Assembly: GCF_007845675.1 (NCBI RefSeq)
Contig: NZ_VOBR01000018.1
Coordinates: 114,256-178,255, forward strand
Direction: 5' to 3'
Origin: Lentzea tibetensis
GTDB taxonomy: Bacteria > Actinomycetota > Actinomycetes > Mycobacteriales > Pseudonocardiaceae
Length of the DNA: 64,000 nt
Shown here: positions 1 through 11,746 of the stretch, piece after piece
Layout: every line of letters begins with the position of its first letter
How positions within the stretch are numbered: position 1 is the stretch's first letter
Notes under the pieces: model-generated
Databases searched by the model: none
The model's input: the letters and a program-made list of their open reading frames with translations, nothing else
What the model was told of the DNA's origin: nothing
Position numbers and translations under genes: made by a program

Positions 1-841
1 CCGACGCCAGCTCGTCGTCCAGCGACAGCTCGCGGTAGGACGACGCGACCGCACGCACGTCGGCGAGCGCCTGGCGGGAGACTTCGAGTATCTCGTCGAG
101 CTCCTGCTTGGCGCGCTTGGGCTGCAACGGCACGAGGCGGTGCGTCAGTTCGGTCTTCAACGTGACCGCGGACAGGCTGAACCCCAGCAGGTCGTGCAGG
201 TCCCGAGCGAACCGCAGGCGTTCCCGCGCGACGGCGAGCCCGGCCAGTTCGGACCGGGCGTCCTCGAGCTCGCGCACGAGCGAACGCAGCCGTGACAACC
301 CGTAGACGACGAGGCCGATGACCATCGTCAGGTTCGCGATGTAGACGACCTCGAGCCCTGGGCCGGTCAGGTTCGACTGGATGACCCCGGCGACAGCGGC
401 GATCGCGAAGAACGCGACCCAACCGGTGCCCAGCCGCAGCACCAGCAGCGCGTCACCGGCGAGGAAGCCGGGCATGCCGGTCCACGCCTCGTGGAAGAAG
501 AACATCGGCACGAACGTCAGCAGCGCCTGGACGAACAAGGCGGAATAACCGAGCGGGCCTCGCACGTCCGCACCGGGACGGCTGAAGAAACCCAGCTGCA
601 GCACCATCATCAGCGCCAGGCACGCGCCTGCCGGAACGACCCTGGCGAACGTCGCGCCCTGCACGACGACGTACTGGAAGGCGTTCACGGCGAATCCCGC
701 GAACACGACGGTGACGACGAGGAGCGCGAGGCGGGGGGCGAGCCCGGCCGCGCGGCCCTGGCTGTCGCTCTCCTGCCCTAACGCGGAGTCGAGGCGTCTT
801 GCCACAACCGCTCCCATGCGAAGAGTCCGGGACTTCGCCAT
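1..841 (-). CDS. sensor histidine kinase, NarL/DesK type (C-terminus outside the window)
   Basis: Two-component sensor kinase whose 5' end is at 841 and which runs off the left edge, so 280 residues are visible. The N-terminal half has about five hydrophobic segments (roughly residues 36-182), followed by a coiled linker and the HisKA_3 phosphoacceptor motif RDLHDLLG with His at about residue 216. The HATPase domain would lie outside the window. The start at 841 (ATG) is 12 bases after the stop of the upstream RiPP gene, so it is probably in the same transcript; ATG at 817 is an alternative. The partner response regulator is not seen and would be expected further left. Its place behind the cyclodehydratase genes suggests, as inference, a role in sensing or controlling the RiPP pathway. 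Confidence 0.88.
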   Translation of the reverse strand, partial: MAKSRTLRMGAVVARRLDSALGQESDSQGRAAGLAPRLALLVVTVVFAGFAVNAFQYVVVQGATFARVVPAGACLALMMVLQLGFFSRPGADVRGPLGYSALFVQALLTFVPMFFFHEAWTGMPGFLAGDALLVLRLGTGWVAFFAIAAVAGVIQSNLTGPGLEVVYIANLTMVIGLVVYGLSRLRSLVRELEDARSELAGLAVARERLRFARDLHDLLGFSLSAVTLKTELTHRLVPLQPKRAKQELDEILEVSRQALADVRAVASSYRELSLDDELAS

Positions 842-853
842 CAGGGCGCCATG

Positions 854-1600
854 CTACCGGTGCCCTGTCGAAGTCCTGTCTGTTTTCCCTGTTCCCTCAG
901 TGAGGATGAAACCAGCGCTCGCCAGATACGCCACGACGTCGGACACGACCTCTTTTCCGACCTCCGAACCGGCCGCGACCTCGGCGATCGTCGTCTCGCC
1001 GTCCAGCAGCGACTTCACGATCCCGGTGGCGGGCGGCCGGTGCAACACAGCGGTGTACGACAGACCGTCGCAGACCAGCACGTGGTCGCCATCAACGTCC
1101 TCTATCGACGCACCTGGCCGGATCGTGATCAGCTGTTCGTCGGCCACGTGCGGACATCGGAACACCGCATTCCCCACGACCGCGATCAGCGACAGAATCG
1201 GGCCCGCACCGTCCTGCAGGCCCAGCGACGGCACCACGCAGCCGCCGAGCCGGTCGAGCGTCCGCCGCAGCCGCAGCCACTGCGCACCGATCTTGCCGGA
1301 CGACTTCCACAGCACGAAGTCGTTGAACAGCACGGGAATGTTCTCCAGCGACACCGGGCCGAGCCCCATCCGGTGCAGCGCCTCGCGCACCAGCGGACTC
1401 GAGTCCGTCACCTCCACGGCACCCCATCTGCCGTGCACCGTCAGCCTGCCGGACTCGGCGCTGACGAGCGTGTCCTCGAGCAGCGAGAACAGAGGTCGCC
1501 CGGCGGGGATGTGCCCAGAAGGAAAGTCCCCAGCAGGGATGTCAGATGTCACCGCGCTTCTCCAGCTCTGCCAAGGCCGCGCGAGATCAACGCCGGTCAT
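854..1600 (-). CDS. SagB N-terminal-domain-like RiPP protein without the nitroreductase domain
   Basis: A 248-residue protein whose ATG overlaps the stop of the YcaO gene (ATGA), so it is translationally coupled. I do not recognise an enzymatic domain. Residues about 100-240 (RLRRTLDRLGG...VPSLG, a VLVCDGLSYTAVLHRP segment, then a predicted winged-helix-like end reaching AYLASAGFI) resemble the N-terminal, leader-binding-like part that precedes the FMN nitroreductase domain in SagB-family TOMM dehydrogenases. The nitroreductase domain itself is absent. It could be a stand-alone RRE-type partner that presents the precursor, or a decayed SagB. Family assignment is from pattern memory; gene reality is clear from frame, coupling and codon use. 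Confidence 0.7.
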   Translation of the reverse strand: MTGVDLARPWQSWRSAVTSDIPAGDFPSGHIPAGRPLFSLLEDTLVSAESGRLTVHGRWGAVEVTDSSPLVREALHRMGLGPVSLENIPVLFNDFVLWKSSGKIGAQWLRLRRTLDRLGGCVVPSLGLQDGAGPILSLIAVVGNAVFRCPHVADEQLITIRPGASIEDVDGDHVLVCDGLSYTAVLHRPPATGIVKSLLDGETTIAEVAAGSEVGKEVVSDVVAYLASAGFILTEGTGKTDRTSTGHR

Positions 1601-3840
1601 AAGAACATCGGGACCGGGTTGAGTTCTTCGAACGCGGCACGTCGCTCGACCCGTCCCAGGGTTAGCGGGACGTCGTAGAGGCGCCCTTGAGCGAGCCTGG
1701 ACCAGAAGTGCCGCATCCCTGGCACCACGACCCTGACGACGGGCAGTTCGACGTCGGGTCGCGTCTGGTCGAGCACCAGCAGTTCCAGGCCCGCGGCCTC
1801 CAGGCGCGTCCGGATGCTCTCGACGTCGGCGCGCAGGTCCTGCTGCGGCACGTACGAATGCCGAGGAGTGAGCAGAGTGGGATCTGGTACCAGGTAGGGA
1901 TGTTCGGCGGTAGTCGCGGTCAGCAGCCACCGCCGCAGATCCACGTCCATCGTGCGCCACTGGTGTTCGGAGACGTTCAGCACGGGCGGCATCACCTGGT
2001 TCAGCTCGGTCAGCGCGCGCTTCACCGCGATGCGCGGGTCGAGGTGCGCGCCGAAGCCGAAGACGATGTCCTCGCGCGGGCCGTCGACGCACCGCGAGAT
2101 CGCGGCCATCACGGGCACCGCGAGGTCCGCGGTCAGGTCGAGCACCCACACCTCGCGACCGAGCGAGGCGTAGACGGAGCGCAGCTCGTCGACGAACGGG
2201 TCGTTCATCCGCTCGAGGTCGATGGTGGGCATGCGGGTGCGGTTGTACCACCACAGCGCGACCGCGTCCCGTTCGATCACCTCGAACAGCGCCTGCAGGA
2301 TCGCGTCCTCGACGCTCGACCCGGCCGCACAGCCGTTGGAGCTCGCGGTGATCGACGCGGGGGAGGGCGCCCCGTAGTAGAGAGATGCGGTCGGCAGCAG
2401 CCGGTGGCACTGGTTCGTCACCGACCACACCGGCGTCCAGTCGAGCACGCCGTGCTTGTCGAACGGTTCCGGCACGTGCTGGAACGCCGCGTGCGCCGCG
2501 TTCCACTCCGTGCGCGAGTCGAACTGGCGCGGGTCGAACAGCTGGAAGGCATCCGGGTGCACGGCTTCGTCGCCGAGCGCGCGGAAGCTGGCGCGGATCC
2601 TGGCCTCGTCGCCGTGGTAGGTGCCGCTGTAGCGCTCGACGGCCTCGCACAGCGCGCCCGCCTCGGCGTGCAGCGGCGTGACGCCCTTGCCGCCGTTCTC
2701 GCAGCGCAACGTCGAGCGCAGTGAGTCGAGACCGGGTCCGCCCGCGGCCACGTTCGTGCCGGAGCGGTAGGAGTTGAAGAAGTCGTGGCCCCTGCTGTCG
2801 CGGCGGATCTCCTTGACCACACCGGAGATCGGGCTCACCAGGTGCCGGTAGCGGTCCAGCACCTCGCGCGCGGACGCGGACCGGTGCCCGCCGCCGTCGG
2901 AGGACCGCTTGATCCTCGACTCGACGCGCACCGGCCGGAGCGTCCGCTTGCGCACCAGGTCCGGGTCACCGCACGCGGGACACTGCGGCAGCGCCCGCAC
3001 GGCGTGCTGCGTCGCACGCAGCTCCAGGCTGTCGAACGCCCAGATCTCGCGCTGCCCGGCGTGCCGGTACCCGGCCAGCCACTTGGTCGCCTCCAGCGCC
3101 GCGACCTCGACCGCGGTGGCCGAGACCGAGGGCAGGCCGACGGCGGGCCGCGCCGCGGGACCGTGCACGCCTCGCCGGGCCTGCACGTGCGCTTCGGCCG
3201 GCCGGTTGGCCGACAACCTGGCGGCGAGACAACGCCAGCAGGCGCCGTCGCCGGGCGTGAACACCGGGCCGACCCACACCTGCGCGCCGGTCGGCTTGAC
3301 CAGCAGCCAGGGTGTGCCGGTCGCCCGGTGTTCGTCGTCGACTTCCCTCAGCGCGGGAGCGAGGTAGTCGTTGCAGATCACGATGGAGAGCGAGGGCGGG
3401 ATGTCACGGGCTGCGCCGGCCGTGACATCCAGTTCGGCGCGGCGTAGCGCGCCGATCATCGCATCGGGCTCGACGCCACCGGCGGTGATGACCCGGACGT
3501 GGGCGTTCCTCGTCGCGCCGACGGCGGTGGAGGCATCCAGGCCCGCTGCGTCCCAGTAAGCGTGCGCAGCGGTGCCGTCGGTGTCGTCCGATGAGCGGGT
3601 GCCGATGAGCCCGGCGGCACCCAGCCTGGTGAGCAGGCGTCCCGCCTGTTCGGCGGGCACCTCCTCGGGCAGGTCCCTCAGCAGCGCCGAGAGATCCCGT
3701 GTTCCGTCCAGCAGCGAGGCCAGCAGTTCGACGTGAGGTCCTTGCAGGGCCGTCACCCCGCTCTCCGAGAACAGGTAGACCGCCTCACCTCGGACGATCT
3801 CCGGTCTCAGATGACGCTTGAACCCGATTCGTTCGTGCAC
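1597..3840 (-). CDS. fused azoline-forming cyclodehydratase (RRE + ThiF-like C domain + YcaO)
   Basis: A 747-residue TOMM cyclodehydratase that would activate backbone amides with ATP and cyclise Cys/Ser/Thr of a precursor into azolines. Residues 1-85 look like the leader-binding winged helix (RRE). Residues about 110-300 are the E1/ThiF-like part, with a zinc tetrad C201/C204 (CWRC) and C287/C290 (CPAC). Residues about 310-747 are YcaO, with ATP-site motifs EAGALCEAVERYSG (393-406) and FEVIERDA (519-526). The C-terminus is NPVPMFL, close to but not the usual PxPxP end. The GTG start at 3840 has AGGAG in front and lies 14 bases after the candidate precursor stop. It is coupled to the next gene by a 4-base overlap. 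Confidence 0.9.
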   Translation of the reverse strand: MHERIGFKRHLRPEIVRGEAVYLFSESGVTALQGPHVELLASLLDGTRDLSALLRDLPEEVPAEQAGRLLTRLGAAGLIGTRSSDDTDGTAAHAYWDAAGLDASTAVGATRNAHVRVITAGGVEPDAMIGALRRAELDVTAGAARDIPPSLSIVICNDYLAPALREVDDEHRATGTPWLLVKPTGAQVWVGPVFTPGDGACWRCLAARLSANRPAEAHVQARRGVHGPAARPAVGLPSVSATAVEVAALEATKWLAGYRHAGQREIWAFDSLELRATQHAVRALPQCPACGDPDLVRKRTLRPVRVESRIKRSSDGGGHRSASAREVLDRYRHLVSPISGVVKEIRRDSRGHDFFNSYRSGTNVAAGGPGLDSLRSTLRCENGGKGVTPLHAEAGALCEAVERYSGTYHGDEARIRASFRALGDEAVHPDAFQLFDPRQFDSRTEWNAAHAAFQHVPEPFDKHGVLDWTPVWSVTNQCHRLLPTASLYYGAPSPASITASSNGCAAGSSVEDAILQALFEVIERDAVALWWYNRTRMPTIDLERMNDPFVDELRSVYASLGREVWVLDLTADLAVPVMAAISRCVDGPREDIVFGFGAHLDPRIAVKRALTELNQVMPPVLNVSEHQWRTMDVDLRRWLLTATTAEHPYLVPDPTLLTPRHSYVPQQDLRADVESIRTRLEAAGLELLVLDQTRPDVELPVVRVVVPGMRHFWSRLAQGRLYDVPLTLGRVERRAAFEELNPVPMFL

Positions 3841-3854
3841 GGCCCCGCTCCTGC

Positions 3855-4028
3855 TCAGGCTGCTGCGGTTGTCGGCGCCTCACCGATGATCACTGGGCCG
3901 CCGCAATGGACTGTGAACGCGAGCAGGTCGAGATCTCCAGCCGTGCCGGTGGGCCGGTCGAACTCGTAGATCACCAGGTCGGCCTCGTCGGCAGGAACGA
4001 TCTCTTCGAGGGTGCGGGTGCTGAACAT
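3855..4028 (-). CDS. candidate RiPP precursor peptide (57 aa)
   Basis: A short ORF of 57 codons starting at ATG 4028 behind a clear GGGGAGA ribosome site and ending 14 bases before the cyclodehydratase start. The N-terminal part is acidic and leader-like (TLEEIVPADEADLVIYEF, residues 6-23). The end is small and neutral and contains a single Cys at 42 within FTVHCGGPVIIGEAP, then TTAAA. Position, size and leader/core asymmetry are what is expected of a TOMM precursor. The oddity is that only one Cys and very few Ser/Thr are in the putative core (T39, C42, T53, T54), so at most a few rings could form. I know of no named family for it; it might instead be a small conserved partner protein. Confidence 0.75.
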   Translation of the reverse strand: MFSTRTLEEIVPADEADLVIYEFDRPTGTAGDLDLLAFTVHCGGPVIIGEAPTTAAA

Positions 4029-4109
4029 GATTGTCTCCCCTTGGGGTCTGGCGTGGACCGGAAGTGCTGGGAGCGATTCTGGGTCGGTGGCCGATGCCCC
4101 CGGTAGTTA

Positions 4110-4121
4110 CGCGTTAACGCG
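4110..4121. promoter_or_regulatory. 12-base perfect palindrome between precursor and SARP genes
   Basis: CGCGTTAACGCG reads the same on both strands. It lies in the 232-base divergent region, about 80 bases from the precursor start and about 140 from the SARP start. This is a reasonable place for an operator controlling both directions; which protein binds is unknown. Confidence 0.4.
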
Positions 4122-4130
4122 CCCGAATAT

Positions 4131-4162
4131 GAAGTTCTCACCCCTCCGCACGGGGTGACTTC
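4131..4162. promoter_or_regulatory. inverted repeat upstream of the SARP gene
   Basis: GAAGT(tct)CACCCC followed after 7 bases by GGGGTGACTTC forms an 11-bp stem with a 3-base bulge. There is no T-run after it, so it looks more like an operator or a 5'-leader hairpin of the SARP transcript than a terminator. Confidence 0.35.
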
Positions 4163-4260
4163 ATGCGCAACTGGTGGTAGGGACACTGCCGCTGGAGGCC
4201 CAGTTGCGATGGACTGATCTGCACACGTCGGGGCGGGTTTTCCTGAGGAGGAACGTGGCG

Positions 4261-5046
4261 ATGCAGATCAAGATCCTGGGGCCGCTCGAGGCCACGCGGA
4301 ACGGCCGTTCGACGTTGCCGACCGCCGCGAAACCGCGGCAGATCTTCGCCCTGCTCGCCCTGCGCGCCGGGCAGGTCGTACCGGTGACGACGCTCATCGA
4401 GGAGCTGTGGGGCGAACGTCCGCCGCGTAGCGCGCGCACCACGCTGCAGACCTACATCATGCAGCTGCGCAGACTCCTCGGTGACAACGCCAGCGACGTG
4501 CTGGTCACCCGGTTCGGCGGCTACCTGCTGAACGTCCCGGTGGAGAACGTCGACGTGCACGAGTTCGAACGCCTCGCGGCGGCCGGACGGCGTGCCTCCG
4601 AAGCAGGAGACCACGAGTCCGCCGCCCGGCTGCTGGGCACGGCGCTCGGCATGTGGCTCGGGCCCGCGCTCGTCGACACACCGACCGGTGACGTGCTCAG
4701 CATCGAGGCGACCAGGCTGGAGGAGTCGCGGCTGAGCGTCGTGGAGAGCCGCATCGACGCCGAGATGCTGGTCGGACGGCACCACACGCTGCTCAGCGAG
4801 CTGGCCGTGCTGACCGCGCGGCACCCGATGAACGAGAACCTGTGCGCCCAGTACATGGTCGCGCTGTTCCGGTCGGGCAGGCAGTGGCAGGCGCTGGACG
4901 CGTTCAAGTCGCTGCGTCAGACGCTGATCGAGGAGCTGGGCGTCGAGCCGTCGGCCAGGCTGCGCGAGCTGCACCGCGCCGTGCTCACCGCCGACTCGTC
5001 CCTCGACCGGGTGGAGACCTCCGAGGTGCGCCAGTTACTCGCTTGA
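4261..5046 (+). CDS. SARP-family transcriptional activator
   Basis: A 261-residue pathway-type activator. Residues 1-95 form an OmpR-like winged helix (MQIKILGPLEA..., LWGERPPRSARTTLQTYIMQLRRLLG) and residues about 100-245 the bacterial transcriptional activation domain (EFERLAAAGRR..., LVGRHHTLLSELAVL). This is the minimal SARP architecture, without ATPase or TPR parts. The ATG at 4261 has GAGGAGG nine bases upstream; GTG at 4255 is the alternative, and a longer frame open from 4174 is rejected because homology begins at MQIKI. It is divergent from the precursor/cyclodehydratase genes and 14 bases upstream of the F420 oxidoreductase, so it is the probable cluster activator. Confidence 0.9.
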   Translation: MQIKILGPLEATRNGRSTLPTAAKPRQIFALLALRAGQVVPVTTLIEELWGERPPRSARTTLQTYIMQLRRLLGDNASDVLVTRFGGYLLNVPVENVDVHEFERLAAAGRRASEAGDHESAARLLGTALGMWLGPALVDTPTGDVLSIEATRLEESRLSVVESRIDAEMLVGRHHTLLSELAVLTARHPMNENLCAQYMVALFRSGRQWQALDAFKSLRQTLIEELGVEPSARLRELHRAVLTADSSLDRVETSEVRQLLA

Positions 5047-5060
5047 CTAGATTCGGGGTC

Positions 5061-5996
5061 GTGGAACTCCGGATCTTCACCGAGCCCCAGCAAGGGGCCA
5101 GCTACGACGACCTGCTGCGCGTGGCGCGGACCGCCGAGGACGCGGGCTACGGCGCGTTCTTCCGCTCCGACCACTACCTGAAGATGGGGTCGGTGTCCGG
5201 TCTGCCGGGCCCGACCGACCCGTGGATCACGTTCGCGGGCCTCGCCCGCGAGACGTCCACCATCCGGCTCGGCACGCTGATGACCGCCGCGACGTTCCGC
5301 TACCCCGGACCGCTGGCGATCAGCGTGGCCCAGGTGGACCAGATGTCCGGCGGCCGCGTCGAGTTCGGCTTCGGCGCCGGGTGGTACGCCGACGAGCACA
5401 CCGCCTACGGCATCCCGTTCCCGTCCGTCACCGAGCGCTTCGAGCGGTACGAGGAGCAGCTGGCGATCATCACCGGCCTGTGGGAGACGCCCGCCGGTGA
5501 CACGTTCTCGTTCTCCGGCGAGCACTACGAGCTCACCGACTCGCCCGCGCTGCCCAAGCCTCTTCAGTCGCCGCGCCCGCCCGTGCTGATCGGTGGCGTT
5601 GGCGCTCGGAGGACCCCGGCGCTGGCCGCCCGCTACGCCAACGAGTTCAACCTGCCGTTCCAGTCGATCGAGACCGCCGAGACGCAGTTCGCGCGCATCG
5701 ACGCGGCGTGCTCGGAGATCGGCCGCGACCCGAGCGAGATCACCCGCTCCGCCGCGCTCGTCGCGTGCATCGGCCGCACGGACGCCGACGTCGCGCGCCG
5801 TGCCTCGGCCATCGGGCGCGAGGTCGAGGAGCTCAAGGAGAACGGCCTGGCCGGTACTCCGGACGAGGTCGTCGAGCGCCTCTCGGTGTGGCGCGAGCGC
5901 ACCGGCATCCAGCGCGTCTACCTGCAGGTGCTGGACCTGTCCGACCTCGACCACATCACCGAGATCGCGTCGGACGTCATGCCGAAGCTCGGCTGA
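5061..5996 (+). CDS. LLM-class F420-dependent oxidoreductase
   Basis: A 311-residue luciferase-like TIM-barrel enzyme of the F420-using group (VELRIFTEPQ, FFRSDHYLKMG, GTLMTAATFRYPGPLA, GGRVEFGFGAGWY, PPVLIGGVGARRTPALAARYANEFN). Such enzymes move hydride between F420 and an unknown substrate. The GTG at 5061 begins 14 bases after the SARP stop and is where the family signature starts; no strong ribosome site is visible, which fits coupling to the SARP gene. Because the cluster lacks a complete SagB dehydrogenase, this enzyme could oxidise or reduce rings or the peptide, but many LLM enzymes are unrelated to their neighbours. It converges on the next gene with a 20-base overlap. Confidence 0.88.
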   Translation: MELRIFTEPQQGASYDDLLRVARTAEDAGYGAFFRSDHYLKMGSVSGLPGPTDPWITFAGLARETSTIRLGTLMTAATFRYPGPLAISVAQVDQMSGGRVEFGFGAGWYADEHTAYGIPFPSVTERFERYEEQLAIITGLWETPAGDTFSFSGEHYELTDSPALPKPLQSPRPPVLIGGVGARRTPALAARYANEFNLPFQSIETAETQFARIDAACSEIGRDPSEITRSAALVACIGRTDADVARRASAIGREVEELKENGLAGTPDEVVERLSVWRERTGIQRVYLQVLDLSDLDHITEIASDVMPKLG

Positions 5997-7184: not shown

Positions 7185-7719
7185 GTCCCGACGTTACCAA
7201 CCCGAGCGCCAGCGCGGCGAGGAGCCCGACCCCCACCACACCCAGCACCGACCCGATCACATCGGTCACCCAGTGCCGCTCCAGCACCACCCGGCTGGCA
7301 GCCGTGAGCACCGTCGCCGTCACCGCGATCGTCGCGCCGCGCCCGAGCAGCACGACCAGCGTGAACCCCACCGCGGCCACGGCCACCGTGTGCCCGCTCG
7401 GGTACGCCCACTGCGGATAGTCGACCGGCCGCACACGCCGGAAGAGGTAGCGGCTGAGCAACGTGCCCCAGCACAACCCGAACAGGACCAGCCCGCGCCA
7501 CAGCCGCGCGTCTTTCTTCCGGTAGGCGATGACGGCGAGCCCAACGCCGAACGCCGACGCGACGACCGGCCCGAACACGTACCCGAAGAAGGTCGACGCC
7601 GTCCGCAGCCACTCGGGCCGGGGCACGCGCGACTGAACCCACAGGTCGAGCGCGGTGACCTCCGGCAACCCCAGGAGAACCCACGAGATCACCAGCACCG
7701 CACCGACCGCGCGCGTCAT
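7141..7719 (-). CDS. PAP2-family membrane phosphatase
   Basis: A 192-residue integral membrane protein with about five hydrophobic helices and all three PAP2 catalytic blocks: RRVRP (C1), YPSGHT (C2) and [12 protein letters not shown] (C3). It probably dephosphorylates a lipid phosphate such as phosphatidate or an isoprenyl diphosphate at the outer membrane face; the substrate is not deducible. The ATG at 7719 overlaps the stop of the upstream SDR gene (ATGA) and its 3' end overlaps lipB. The frame open to 7878 was rejected because the coupled start is at MTRAVGAV. Confidence 0.9.
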
Positions 7720-8606
7720 GCCACGGCAGCGCTCAACGCGGATCCGAGCGCCGGGTGCTGGAAGTGGAACCCCTTGCTCTCCAGCACCTGCGGCGTCAGC
7801 CCGGGCCCGGTCAGCAGCAGCTCGTCGGCCCGCTCCCCGCCGAGCAATGCCCGAAGCGCGAACCCCGGCACCACCCACGGCGTAGGCCGGTGAATCGCAT
7901 GCCCCAGCGCCTCGGTGAACTCGGCGTTCGTGGCCGGTGTCGGCCCGGCGAGGTTGACCGGCCCGGCGATGTCGTCGTGCTCGACGACGAACCGGTACGC
8001 GGACACCACGTCATCCAGCGAGACCCAGGGGAAGAACTGGTCACCGCTGCCCAGCTTCCCGCCGAGGAACAACGAGAACACCGGCTTGATCCGCCCGAGC
8101 ACACCACCGTTGGGCGACACCACCACAGCCGTGCGCAGCAACACGACGCGCACCCCGCCCTGCTGAGCCGCCGCGGTAGCCGCCTCCCAGTCCTGCGTGA
8201 GCCTGGACATGAAGGTGCTGCCACCAGGCGCACTCTCGTCAGCGATCCGGTTTCCGGTGTCGCCGTAGTAATGCGCCCCCGACGAGTTCACCAACACCGG
8301 CACCCCGTGCTCCACGACCGCGGCCGACAACACCTCGGTGGGCACGATCCGACTGTCCCTGAGCACCTGCTTGCGCGCGTCGTCCCACCGCTTGTCCCCA
8401 ACCCCGGCGCCGCACAGGTTGATGACCGCGTCCACACCGTCGAGCGCACCTTCGTCGATGCGCCCCGCGTACGGGTCCCAGCCCCGCTCGTCGGGCGCGG
8501 CGGGCTTCCGACGCACCAGCCGAAGCACCTCGTAGCCCTCCGCGCGCAACGACGCGACCAGGCTGCTGCCGATCAGACCGGACGAACCCGCGATGACAAC
8601 CCGCAT
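7716..8606 (-). CDS. TIGR01777-type NAD(P)-dependent sugar epimerase/SDR protein
   Basis: A 296-residue extended-SDR protein: N-terminal Rossmann motif MRVVIAGSSGLIGSSL, then VDAVINLCGAGVGDKRW, SSGAHYYGD and VNLAGPTPATNAEF, typical of the TIGR01777/YfcH family (orthologue of mycobacterial Rv2216 by synteny with sucB and lipB). Substrate unknown. The ATG at 8606 is the natural start of the Rossmann fold; the longer open frame upstream is repeat DNA. It heads the set SDR-PAP2-lipB-secreted protein, joined by overlaps. Confidence 0.92.
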   Translation of the reverse strand: MRVVIAGSSGLIGSSLVASLRAEGYEVLRLVRRKPAAPDERGWDPYAGRIDEGALDGVDAVINLCGAGVGDKRWDDARKQVLRDSRIVPTEVLSAAVVEHGVPVLVNSSGAHYYGDTGNRIADESAPGGSTFMSRLTQDWEAATAAAQQGGVRVVLLRTAVVVSPNGGVLGRIKPVFSLFLGGKLGSGDQFFPWVSLDDVVSAYRFVVEHDDIAGPVNLAGPTPATNAEFTEALGHAIHRPTPWVVPGFALRALLGGERADELLLTGPGLTPQVLESKGFHFQHPALGSALSAAVA

Positions 8607-8937
8607 GCGTTGATCGTCTCCCACCAGGCGTGCGCTTGCACGCGGGGAATGTGTGCTGAACGACACCTGAACCGGTAGCGGGCCGCTTGGCCCACTTCTC
8701 GAGCTCCGAACGCCGTAGTTGCAGCCCCGATGGGGCGCTCGGCGTGGGCCGGGGTGTGCGGGCTCGCCGGTTGGTGGGCGTGTCGACGTGCCCGGTTGTC
8801 GCCTGGCTGGGCTTGGCTGCCGGTTCTCGTCGGGGCCGGGCTCTTTGCCTGGCTGCCGGTTTCGTGTGGGCTGGATTCCGATGCTTGCTGCGCTTCGGTG
8901 TTTCGCTGTCGGGTGGTTGCGTCGCGCCTTCGGCGCA

Positions 8938-9056
8938 GCGATTGGGCCTTGACTTGGGGCCCCTCGCGGCGTGGTGGGGCCGGCTCCGCCGGCAGGAAGA
9001 GAACCTGCCGGCCCGATAGGGGTACCACGCCGCACCCCAAGTCAAGGCCCAATCGC
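8938..9056. repeat. three-tier nested palindrome
   Basis: The outer arms 8938-8959 and 9035-9056 are perfectly complementary over 22 bases (core TTGGGCCTTGACTTGGGG). Inside them GCGGCGTGGT (8966-8975) pairs with 9024-9033, and GCCGGCAGG (8988-8996) pairs with 9004-9012 around a 7-base purine loop. The whole would fold into one long imperfect hairpin or cruciform. Confidence 0.85.
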
Positions 9057-9107
9057 CAGGTGCCCACCACCCCGCTGACTGCGGAAGCGCACACTCCTTG
9101 CCTGATC

Positions 9108-9300
9108 ACACCGGCCCGCCTGCCGTCGGACTCGCTTTCCGCAATCACACCGACCCGCCTGCCGTCGGACTCGCCTTCCGTAGGTGCACCGACCCACTTG
9201 CCGTCGGGCCCGCCTTCTGTCGGCACACCGACCCGCCTGCCGTCGGCCCGCGATCCGTAGACACACCGACCTGCCCGCCGTCGGGCCCGCCAGCTCGACC
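9108..9300. repeat. 39-base tandem repeat, about 5 copies
   Basis: CCGTCGG recurs at 9123, 9162, 9201, 9240 and 9278 within units of the type CACACCGACCCGCCTGCCGT followed by a variable GGxCTCGCxTTCCG part. The period is 39 bases with one 1-base deviation. Being a multiple of three it keeps frames open and gives a 13-residue repeat (DGRRVGV...) on the minus strand, probably by chance. Confidence 0.8.
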
Positions 9301-9423
9301 CACCCGCCGCTGGGCCCGACTTCCACCCGACACGACACACCCCTGGCCCTGCCAGGCCGCCGCTCACGGCCGCGAGCGCGCTCACGCGGGCGTCCCCCGC
9401 ACCCGAGAACCCCCCGAACCGAT

Positions 9424-9455
9424 GCTCCCAGCCAGCACCGACAATCCCCCGCCCC
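9424..9455. repeat. short relic of the dispersed CACCGACAAT element
   Basis: CTCCCAGCCAGCACCGACAA and the following CCC run match the central part of the element found at 18204, 24240, 25503, 34229, 58095 and 58398. The GC-hairpin part and the DnaA-like part are missing. Confidence 0.5.
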
Positions 9456-9561
9456 ACAGACAGGCCAGCCACGAAACCAGGGGTGCGACAGCCCGCAACA
9501 TCTGCGGCGCAGCGTGGACCCCGGCGAGCGAAGCGACGCCAGCACACCAAGCAACCCACCA

Positions 9562-9690
9562 CGAAACCGGCAGAAACCAAGGGAGCACCGGCCAAACCGG
9601 CAGGCACCAAGCGAGCCCAGCGAAACCGGCGCGAACCAAGCGAGCACCGATCAAACCGGCAGGTACCAAGCGAGCCCAGCGAAAACGGCG
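9562..9690. repeat. 29/30-base tandem repeat
   Basis: Units beginning AAACCGGC and containing ACCAAGCGAGC alternate in two versions, giving a 59-base higher-order period (CAAACCGGC at 9593 and 9652). About four and a half units are visible. No coding role is apparent. Confidence 0.7.
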
Positions 9691-9802
9691 CGAACCAAAA
9701 GAAAAGAGCGCCCGCCGCATTCCCAACCCCCGCACTGCCAACCGGGCGCGGCCCCCGAGCCAAAACCGGCAGCCAAATGATCCCAAGCATCCGAAGGGCC
9801 AG

Positions 9803-9930
9803 GGTGGGGAGGTTCTCGCTGATCAGGCGCAGCCTTGCCATATTTTCAGGGCGGGGTCAAGACGTCTTTTTGTCTTGACCCCGCCCTGAAAATATGGCCA
9901 CCTCTGGTGATCAGCGAGAACCTCCCCACC
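9803..9930. repeat. two-tier nested palindrome, possible bidirectional terminator
   Basis: The outer arms 9803-9825 and 9908-9930 are perfect 23-base complements (GGTGGGGAGG...CTGATCA). The inner arms 9837-9863 and 9872-9898 are perfect 27-base complements ending in GGGGTCAAGAC around the loop GTCTTTTT. The architecture is the same as at 41950-42084. It lies between the sucB terminator and the repeat arrays. Confidence 0.9.
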
Positions 9931-9975
9931 CACCACCGAAAGCCCGCACAACCAAAGCAAGCAAAGCAAGCAAAA

Positions 9976-10003
9976 GGCCACCCCGGCCGAAACCGGGGTG
10001 GCC
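9976..10003 (-). terminator. intrinsic terminator of sucB
   Basis: GGCCACCCCGG and CCGGGGTGGCC form an 11-bp stem 19 bases past the sucB stop. On the minus strand it is followed by TTTTGC. It ends the lpdA-sucB transcript. Confidence 0.85.
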
Positions 10004-10021
10004 CAAGCAATACGTCAGACG

Positions 10022-11746
10022 TCAGAGACCGAGATCAGCCTCGAACGCGCCTTCCTCGAGCCGGTTCTTCACCGTGGTGAGGAACCGACCGGCGTCCGCA
10101 CCGTCGACCAGCCGGTGGTCGTAGGTGAGCGCGAGGTACATCATCGACCGGATGGCGATGGTGTCGCCGCCGTCCTCGTCGGTGATGACGACCGCGCGCT
10201 TCTTGACCACGCCGACGCCCAGGATGCCGACCTGCGGCTGCTGGATGATCGGGGTGTCGAACAGCGCGCCGTTGCTGCCGAGGTTGGTCAGCGAGAACGT
10301 GCCGCCGGTGAGCTCGTCCGGCGTCAGCTTGTTGGACCGCGCCCGAGCGGCGAGGTCGCCGATCTTGTGCGCGAGACCGGCCAGGTTGAGGTCACCGGAG
10401 TTGTGGATGACGGCGTTGAGCAGGCCGCGGTCCGTGTCGATCGCGATACCCAGGTGCTCGGCACCGTGGTACGTGACCTCCTTCTTCTCCTCGTCGATCG
10501 ACGCGTTCAGCACCGGGTGCTGCTTGAGCGCCTCGATCGCCGCCTTGGCGAAGAACGGCAGGAAGGTCAGCTTGGCGCCCTCGCGCTGCTCGAACGCCTT
10601 CTTGGCCTGGTTGCGCAGGCGGGCGATCTTGGTGACGTCCACCTCGAACACCTGCGTGAGCTGTGCGGACATCTGCAGCGACTCGCGGGTGCGCTGCGCG
10701 ACGATCTGACGCAGGCGGGGGAGCTTCTGCACGGTGCCGCGCTTGCCGCTGGTGTCGACCGAGGCCGGAGCGGCGGTGCGGGCGGCGGGTGCGGCCGCGG
10801 CCGGAGCGGCGGGTGCCGGAGCCGGGGCCTTCTTGGCCTCGACGGCGGCGAGCACGTCCTGCTTGCGGATGCGGCCACCGACGCCGGTGCCCTTCAGCGA
10901 AGCCAGGTCGATGCCGTTCTCCGACGCCAGCTTGCGGACGAGCGGCGTCACGTACGGCTGGCCGTTCGCGTCCTCGCCCGAAGCCGAAGCCGGCGCGGCG
11001 GCCGGCGCGGCGGCGGCCGGAGCAGCAGCCGGGGCCGGAGCGGGGGCAGCGGCGGCGGGTGCCGGGGCAGCCGGAGCCGGCGGAGCGGCGGCGGGAGCCG
11101 GAGCAGCGGCGGCCGGGGCCGGGCTGCCGGAACCGATGACGGCGAGCTGGCCGCCGACCTCGACGGTCTCGTCCTCGCCCGCGGTGATCGCCAGCAGCGT
11201 GCCCGCGACCGGGGACGGGATCTCGGTGTCGACCTTGTCGGTCGAGACCTCGAGCAGCGGCTCGTCGACGGCGACGCTGTCGCCGACCTGCTTCAGCCAC
11301 CGGGTGACGGTGCCCTCGGTGACGCTCTCGCCGAGCGCGGGCATCGTGACCGGCGTGCCCTCGGCAGAACCGGAATCGGCAGAACCGGAATCGGAAGAGG
11401 CGGGAGCGGCGGCCGGGGCCGGAGCCTCCTCGGCGGCCGGAGCGGCGGGCTCCTCGGCGGCGGGCGCGGACTCCTGAGCGGGCTCGGGCGTGGCGGCGGG
11501 CGCGCTGTCACCGTCACCGATGACGGCGAGCTCACCGCCGACCTCGACGGTGTCGTCCTCCTGCGCGACGATCTTCTGCAGAACGCCTGCCGCGGGGGAG
11601 GGGATCTCCGTGTCGACCTTGTCGGTGGACACCTCGAGCAACGGCTCGTCCACCTCCACCCGGTCGCCTTCCTGCTTCAACCACCGGGTGACGGTGCCTT
11701 CGGTGACGCTCTCACCGAGTGCTGGCATCTGGACGGAGAAGGCCAT
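10022..11746 (-). CDS. sucB: 2-oxo acid dehydrogenase E2, dihydrolipoamide succinyltransferase
   Basis: A 574-residue E2 subunit (DlaT/SucB type). Two N-terminal lipoyl domains are almost copies of each other ([18 protein letters not shown]; lipoyl lysine in [15 protein letters not shown]43 in the first), separated and followed by long Ala/Pro/Glu linkers. Then come the peripheral subunit-binding domain ([28 protein letters not shown]) and the catalytic acyltransferase domain ending with [14 protein letters not shown], which carries the catalytic His and Asp. In actinobacteria this E2 can serve both pyruvate and 2-oxoglutarate dehydrogenase. AGGAG precedes the ATG. It lies 50 bases downstream of lpdA, which supplies E3, and in the lipB neighbourhood. 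Confidence 0.96.

Follow-up and report, generated by a model that had tools for sequence, protein, structure and literature searches.

A putative azoline peptide pheromone cassette in Lentzea whose peptide core and sensor kinase vary together

The 64,000-nucleotide stretch of Lentzea tibetensis analysed here (contig NZ_VOBR01000018.1, positions 114,256 to 178,255 of the forward strand; hereafter the window) begins with a compact locus that is, in our view, probably a signalling cassette, with an azoline-bearing ribosomally synthesised and post-translationally modified peptide (RiPP) as its pheromone. Between 854 and 5046 two divergent transcription units are seen: on the minus strand a precursor operon with a fused cyclodehydratase (a RiPP recognition element, RRE, joined to ThiF-like and YcaO parts) and a stand-alone double-RRE protein, and on the plus strand a Streptomyces antibiotic regulatory protein (SARP). 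A tandem histidine kinase belongs to the same operon (Table 1). An earlier note, made from the letters of the window, described an azoline-type RiPP locus but overlooked the two-component system, the loss of a dehydrogenase domain and the co-variation of peptide core and sensor, and it is these three that indicate a signalling role. The azoline pheromone is proposed because signal, enzymes and sensor appear to move as a block between conserved flanks, as in ComQXPA of Bacillus. The exchanged pherotype cassette would consist of the core, the cyclodehydratase, the oxidase-derived double RRE and the tandem sensor kinase, and its peptide chemistry may be new for such signals. Evenly balanced, in our judgement, is the wider proposal of a first pheromone-receptor system with an azoline RiPP signal: a genus-wide quorum sensing of Lentzea, with horizontally exchanged pherotype cassettes, that switches the SARP together with a set of type-II polyketide-like genes beside it.

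Nucleotide identity in 250-nt windows was followed along five close species pairs. In three pairs (NEAU-D7 and L. californiensis; NEAU-D7 and L. albidocapillata violacea; NBRC 102530 and L. waywayandensis) it keeps to 0.92-1.00 over a stretch that begins about 3 kb upstream and takes in the SARP gene, is 0.96-0.97 in the leader, drops to 0.55-0.56 in the core, lies at 0.64-0.92 from YcaO to the second membrane domain of the kinase, and recovers to 0.88-0.94 once the second kinase domain is reached. The same-core pair, L. californiensis and violacea, stays at 0.91-0.98 from the SARP gene to the end of the kinase. Between L. kentuckyensis and L. alba the dip is limited to the core (0.70) and the two kinase membrane domains (0.71-0.81). 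Of the two kinase domains it is the second that is conserved in Lentzea; the first falls in the variable block.

All 153 pairs of 18 loci of type 1, the commonest Lentzea precursor type (19 loci), were tabulated. The nineteenth, L042 of genome G002, was omitted for its broken YcaO frame. Homology begins there only at residue 172, though the genome is a single contig, and a frameshift or sequencing error may be the cause. Nineteen pairs, from 9 loci, have a SARP identity of at least 0.94. Among them the five same-core pairs show 0.94 in YcaO, 0.93 in the RRE protein, 0.93 and 0.91 in the first and second membrane domains (TM1, TM2) and 0.93 in the first kinase domain. For the fourteen different-core pairs (core 0.41) the corresponding values are 0.84 for YcaO, 0.87 for the RRE protein, 0.77 and 0.70 for TM1 and TM2, and 0.84 for the first kinase domain. 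In the SARP, the leader and the second kinase domain the two groups agree within 0.01.

A prediction set beforehand held in two pairs, while a third was in between. Loci L057 and L062, with different cores, have 0.89 in the SARP, 0.88 in YcaO, 0.88 in the second kinase domain, 0.77 in TM1 and 0.79 in TM2, and L063 and L064, which share a core, have 0.95 in TM1 and 0.94 in TM2. The window and its relative L040 are intermediate (SARP 0.85, second kinase domain 0.83, TM1 0.81, TM2 0.77). Further, across type 1 the distances of the kinase membrane domains, the first kinase domain and YcaO correlate with that of the core over and above SARP and second-kinase distance. Phylogeny is ignored in the permutations used for these correlations, and their values are not probabilities.

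Block and flanks also yield different trees, in tests on clades chosen after the pair tables were known. Both the block (p-AU 5.5e-06) and the membrane-domain columns (3.2e-08) reject the flank group of NEAU-D7, L. californiensis and two L. albidocapillata; the flanks in turn reject the core-type group that includes NBRC 102530 (p 0.01). The flanks did not reject a clade of L. pudingi and NEAU-D7 (p 0.12). L. terrae, whose core by eye resembles those of L. indica and L. aerocolonigenes NBRC 13195, groups with these two in the trees of block and sensor and does not do so in that of the flanks. The alleles thus appear to have been exchanged as blocks between species.

The full tandem kinase has 776 residues (G000:C20:112766-115096, where G000 is the genome of the window), and the edge of the window cuts its gene. 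It carries two HisKA_3/HATPase units, and an alignment of its two halves shows 203 identities in 364 positions. Next after it in this genome, just outside the window, stands a convergent LuxR-type response regulator (Response_reg and GerE). The kinase is 763-786 residues long in 26 Lentzea and Umezawaea loci, 773 in the Actinomycetospora genome G097, and 411-462 in four measured loci that bear an oxidase. Within the promoter region shared by SARP and precursor, conserved stretches, located by eye, lie at about 4101-4120 and 4130-4163; in the strain of the window the latter forms, again by eye, an inverted repeat that is imperfect. Both are possible candidate sites for the response regulator or the SARP. 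Outside the window, about 109.3-112.1 kb on the same contig (L072:7005-9801), the cassette is adjoined by another SARP, another histidine kinase, a single one, and another response regulator. This second set was seen in the window strain, in L. sp. NBRC 105346 and in Umezawaea, and no second YcaO was seen there.

Relatives of the double-RRE protein occur in 40 of 200 genomes of relatives, all 25 Lentzea genomes included, and in 25 of 397 genomes of an order sample and 11 of 394 of a class sample; a profile search likewise finds the protein in 25/25 Lentzea genomes. In all six Lentzea stretches compared the locus lies near lipB. Among named genomes 62 loci were found, 36 with a dehydrogenase match and 26 without. 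The latter are 23 from Lentzea (including a record that bears the name Nocardia sp. NRRL S-836 but has a contig matching a genus-mate) and one each from Umezawaea tangerina, Actinokineospora pegani and an Actinomycetospora. A histidine kinase match lies within the stretch in all 26 dehydrogenase-free loci and in 29 of the 36 oxidase-bearing ones. Another record, L118, labelled Rhodococcus rhodnii NRRL B-16535, is probably mislabelled: its oxidase domain is 91-95% identical to those in two Kibdelosporangium records, with its own protein as query.

The 57-residue precursor is preceded by a Shine-Dalgarno-like GGGGAG ahead of its ATG. Its leader holds a DLVIYEFD motif at residues 17-24, its core is DLDLLAFTVHCGGPVIIG, with Thr39 and Cys42, and its tail ends in TTAAA. 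A small reading frame with the shared leader motif occupies the interval between SARP and YcaO in all 26 Lentzea and Umezawaea loci, the window included, so that the 57-residue frame is not a chance one; such a frame also precedes YcaO in four of seven loci fetched from other genera. Mean pairwise amino-acid identity in the 19 type-1 loci is 0.74 in the leader, 0.27 in the core and 0.84 in the tail. The homologues found next to YcaO genes are, to judge from their alignment, peptides whose leader is conserved and whose core is hypervariable, and not globular proteins, as the earlier note had expected. The single core Cys to which it drew attention is present in the window, but its exact position is not conserved and several Lentzea cores are Cys-free.

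Its description of the precursor family as unrecognised stands for the window precursor, which no Pfam or NCBIfam model matched, TIGR04351 (TOMM_nitrile_2, of the nitrile hydratase leader peptide type, NHLP) included. It does not extend to the one Streptomyces precursor tested from the same gene position: that of S. scabiei passes this model for putative thiazole/oxazole-modified microcins (TOMMs) with 94.9 bits against a cut-off of 65, while a Herbidospora precursor stays under it (55.9 bits). Among loci with the same neighbours, those of Streptomyces and most from Herbidospora encode a precursor with a nitrile-hydratase-like region, and the motif recurs as ELTIEELSRP or similar. The Lentzea precursor has likely retained just this short motif from an older, longer leader. 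No precursor was recognised in the named Amycolatopsis loci L122, L124, L125, L127 and L128, nor in L146 and L150; the motif search found none in L068, L070 and L071, and L129 has no YcaO within the fetched stretch.

In Lentzea cores a pair of Ser, Thr or Cys recurs behind an aromatic residue, a post hoc observation claimed for the Lentzea branch only. The motif aromatic-[STC]-x(1,2)-[CT] is found in 25 of 44 cores against a shuffle mean of 6.8 (non-redundant, 12 of 26 against 3.9), where the cores were picked by eye, with near-duplicates of named loci omitted, and the motif was framed on these same cores. A hold-out of 20 loci left six cores to test, as three precursors duplicated ones already used and eleven loci had no recognisable precursor. 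Two of the six carry the strict and four the loose motif, which is not above chance (1732 and 544 of 5000 shuffles reach it).

Two side observations concern the precursors. Lentzea precursors terminate in LAA, QAA or AAA (3855-3872 in the window), and the transfer-messenger RNA (tmRNA) tag of this genome ends in ALAA (RF00023). Because of this shared ending an SsrA-like degradation signal is conceivable; we have not adopted it, and Umezawaea lacks the ending. In Actinokineospora fastidiosa (L119:5247-5639) a relative precursor has a long core of WPTTA-like repeats, which suggests that one precursor could give many modified units.

As is typical of a TOMM, or azol(in)e RiPP, the locus combines a YcaO domain and its ThiF-like/RRE partner (the C and D proteins) with a precursor of conserved leader and variable, Ser/Thr/Cys-bearing core, and RiPP chemistry is likely. 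The fusion matches TIGR03604 (262 bits) and TIGR03882 (152 bits), both above cut-off, and PF02624 (339 bits), which bears out the cyclodehydratase of the earlier note; the SagB-N-terminal-like protein and the SARP that it placed around it are equally present. The gene of the former overlaps the YcaO stop as ATGA. LynD, TruD and MusD, which form azolines, are the closest solved relatives of the fusion, matched over nearly its entire length.

The double-RRE protein has the ThcOx N-terminal fold, and weak ArsR/TrmB matches (E 0.06-0.13, under cut-offs) did not make it a metalloregulator. It lacks the SagB-type FMN dehydrogenase domain by which an oxidised, azole TOMM is recognised. SagB-type dehydrogenase matches at E 1e-20 occur in six of the 25 Lentzea genomes, five of them above the family cut-off, and none lies in the locus. 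Since the other 19 show no such match, an azoline rather than an azole peptide is predicted. A dehydrogenase acting in trans is possible in the six genomes, but we rejected it as a general explanation. Elsewhere in the genome of the window (L152, about 7700-11100, that is G000:C14 at about 122.7-126.1 kb) a second YcaO fusion stands beside a full SagB-type oxidase, and another SagB-like match is found on contig C97.

The following mechanism, drawn from the families and from the co-variation, would account for the locus. The strand-like leader motif (LVIYEFD type) would bind the RRE of the fused cyclodehydratase, with the double-RRE protein assisting as a scaffold, and the YcaO domain would convert one or two Ser, Thr or Cys of the core, here Thr39 and/or Cys42, to azolines. 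With no flavin dehydrogenase domain at hand the rings would remain azolines. General proteases would remove the leader and perhaps the tail, and the peptide would leave the cell. The tandem kinase would recognise the mature core through its membrane domains and hand its phosphate to the LuxR-type regulator, and this relay would raise the SARP and, in most Lentzea, the adjoining polyketide-like genes. The alleles of core, enzymes and sensor, which differ between species and could be exchanged, would be pherotypes.

FabF-like ketosynthase, polyketide cyclase and 3-ketoacyl-ACP synthase III (KAS III) homologues lie in the stretch of 22 of the 23 named Lentzea loci (the exception is L090), often with a short-chain dehydrogenase/reductase (SDR) and a FAD reductase, and for this reason the natural target in most Lentzea would be the neighbouring polyketide-like set. 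In the Actinomycetospora locus a cyclase, an SDR and a FAD reductase stand beside the SARP. No cyclase relative was found at E 1e-10 in G024, G082 and G303.

Several points weigh against a pheromone cassette. The 19 close pairs stem from 9 loci only and are not independent, and the cut of 0.75 that divides same-core from different-core pairs was chosen after the values were known. YcaO and the RRE protein also lie within the divergent block, and linkage may account for some of the co-variation. Although L. xinjiangensis and L. fradiae have, judged by eye, the same type of core, the block rejects their clade (p 0.007); the flanks reject it too (p 0.03) and the sensor columns do not (p 0.34). 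Seven of the 36 oxidase-bearing relatives, five of them Amycolatopsis, have no histidine kinase nearby, and in type-1 Lentzea other genes separate kinase and regulator, among them the KAS III gene in G002 and G018. The window strain itself has no flanking polyketide genes, just a 45% cyclase relative elsewhere (C14), and is one of the six Lentzea that carry a SagB-type dehydrogenase elsewhere. No exporter or protease gene was found in the Pfam scan, which covered the locus genes and nine neighbours but not every neighbour. Finally, a nisin-like antimicrobial that induces its own kinase would give the same picture.

Such an antimicrobial azoline peptide, self-induced through its own two-component system, with a core shaped by an arms race and a sensor that follows, is the alternative we take most seriously, though we think it unlikely. 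It would agree with the hypervariable core and conserved leader, the adjacent kinase and regulator and the SARP. The lack of immunity, transporter and protease genes among the locus genes and the nine neighbours scanned, which are not all of the neighbours, speaks against it, as does the presence in 25/25 Lentzea genomes, near lipB wherever compared, which is unusual for a bacteriocin, and so do alleles that appear swapped as blocks. Improbable in our estimate is that the YcaO fusion modifies the backbone of a signal peptide in another way, to an amidine, thioamide or lactam. YcaO enzymes are chemically versatile, and Cys-free cores and the lost dehydrogenase domain would fit; the fusion nevertheless retains its RRE, ThiF-like and YcaO parts with the invariant CWxC...QCxxCG, LCEAxER and E..ERD stretches, besides its full-length likeness to LynD, TruD and MusD. 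Very improbable is an azole or azoline natural product tailored by the F420-dependent oxidoreductase that the earlier note counted into the locus, with regulators merely controlling production: cyclodehydratase and precursor are real and the oxidoreductase adjoins the SARP in the window and L040, but these are the only two of 26 Lentzea and Umezawaea loci with it inside the fetched stretch, 8-9 kb lie between it and the SARP in G004, G010 and G018, where it is one gene away from lipB, in G002 a 33-kb stretch has no match, and core-sensor co-variation would be left unexplained. On this synteny we rejected it as a tailoring enzyme and as a locus member.

Table 1. Features of the locus, in window positions.
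Feature	Position	Strand	Basis
Tandem histidine kinase, N-terminal part: first membrane domain and beginning of first kinase domain	2..841	-	
Stand-alone double-RRE protein, 248 aa	854..1600	-	ThcOx/SagB N-terminal part, no FMN nitroreductase domain
Fused RRE-ThiF-like-YcaO cyclodehydratase, 747 aa	1597..3840	-	Profile matches, solved relatives
RiPP precursor, 57 aa	3855..4028	-	Reading frame, leader motif, alignment
Shared divergent promoter region	4029..4260	.	Conserved stretches
SARP-type activator, divergent from precursor operon	4261..5046	+	PF00486 and PF03704
TIGR03560 F420-dependent luciferase-like (LLM) oxidoreductase; neighbour, judged outside the system	5061..5996	+	

If the pheromone cassette is real, cyclodehydratase chemistry, best known from antibiotics and toxins, also produces species-specific actinomycete signals, and there would be a handle on when Lentzea activates the neighbouring polyketide-like set. 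The alleles would offer naturally varied ligand-receptor pairs with which to study the reading of modified peptides by membrane kinases, and the stand-alone ThcOx double RRE isolates a non-catalytic role of the B protein.

In the open-access literature on YcaO or cyclodehydratase with SARP, histidine kinase, pheromone, Lentzea or NHLP, titles and abstract openings hold no description of this system. Mobilisins (Cox 2015, PMC4603692), compared by description alone, resemble it in their actinobacterial fused cyclodehydratase, B protein and precursor low in Cys, Ser and Thr; the account given there has B, C and D proteins only. Goadsporin, according to section 11 of the same paper, is an actinomycete azole peptide promoting secondary metabolism and morphogenesis at low concentration, and its reported effect on secondary metabolism is the likeness; its cluster differs in having lanthipeptide-like dehydratases and a B protein. 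Section 10 reports cyanobactin and NHLP cyclodehydratases as grouping together. With cyanobactin loci the Lentzea system shares the type of YcaO fusion and the ThcOx N-terminal fold, but the oxidase domain is absent and regulators are present; no PatA/PatG-type protease was found among the Pfam-scanned locus genes and neighbours, which do not cover all neighbours. For another NHLP-type azole cluster, azoline formation is described as poor without the dehydrogenase partner (PMC10676384). As for the NHLP-type TOMMs, the Streptomyces precursor tested shares the gene position and has a similar leader motif, whereas the window precursor has no nitrile-hydratase-like region and the dehydrogenase domain is gone.

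The block pattern of hypervariable signal, modifying enzymes and sensor is the same as in agr of Staphylococcus. In ComQXPA of Bacillus, as the passages drawn on describe it, the signal end of the peptide varies most, the membrane domain of the kinase varies markedly, and there are pherotypes (PMC4008528, PMC4408185). According to the 2014 census no ComQXPA-like locus is found outside Firmicutes; the Pfam domains that it gives for ComP and ComA are shared by the Lentzea kinase and regulator. Both systems encode together a modified ribosomal peptide, its modifying enzyme, a kinase with several membrane segments (PF07730/PF02518) and a regulator (PF00072/PF00196). Here a YcaO cyclodehydratase and a double RRE stand in place of the isoprenyl transferase ComQ, no prenyltransferase gene was found among the genes scanned by Pfam, the kinase is a fused tandem, a SARP is added and the hosts are Actinobacteria. 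As in ComQXPA pherotypes, the signal region and the receptor membrane domain are polymorphic together and the (second) kinase domain is conserved.
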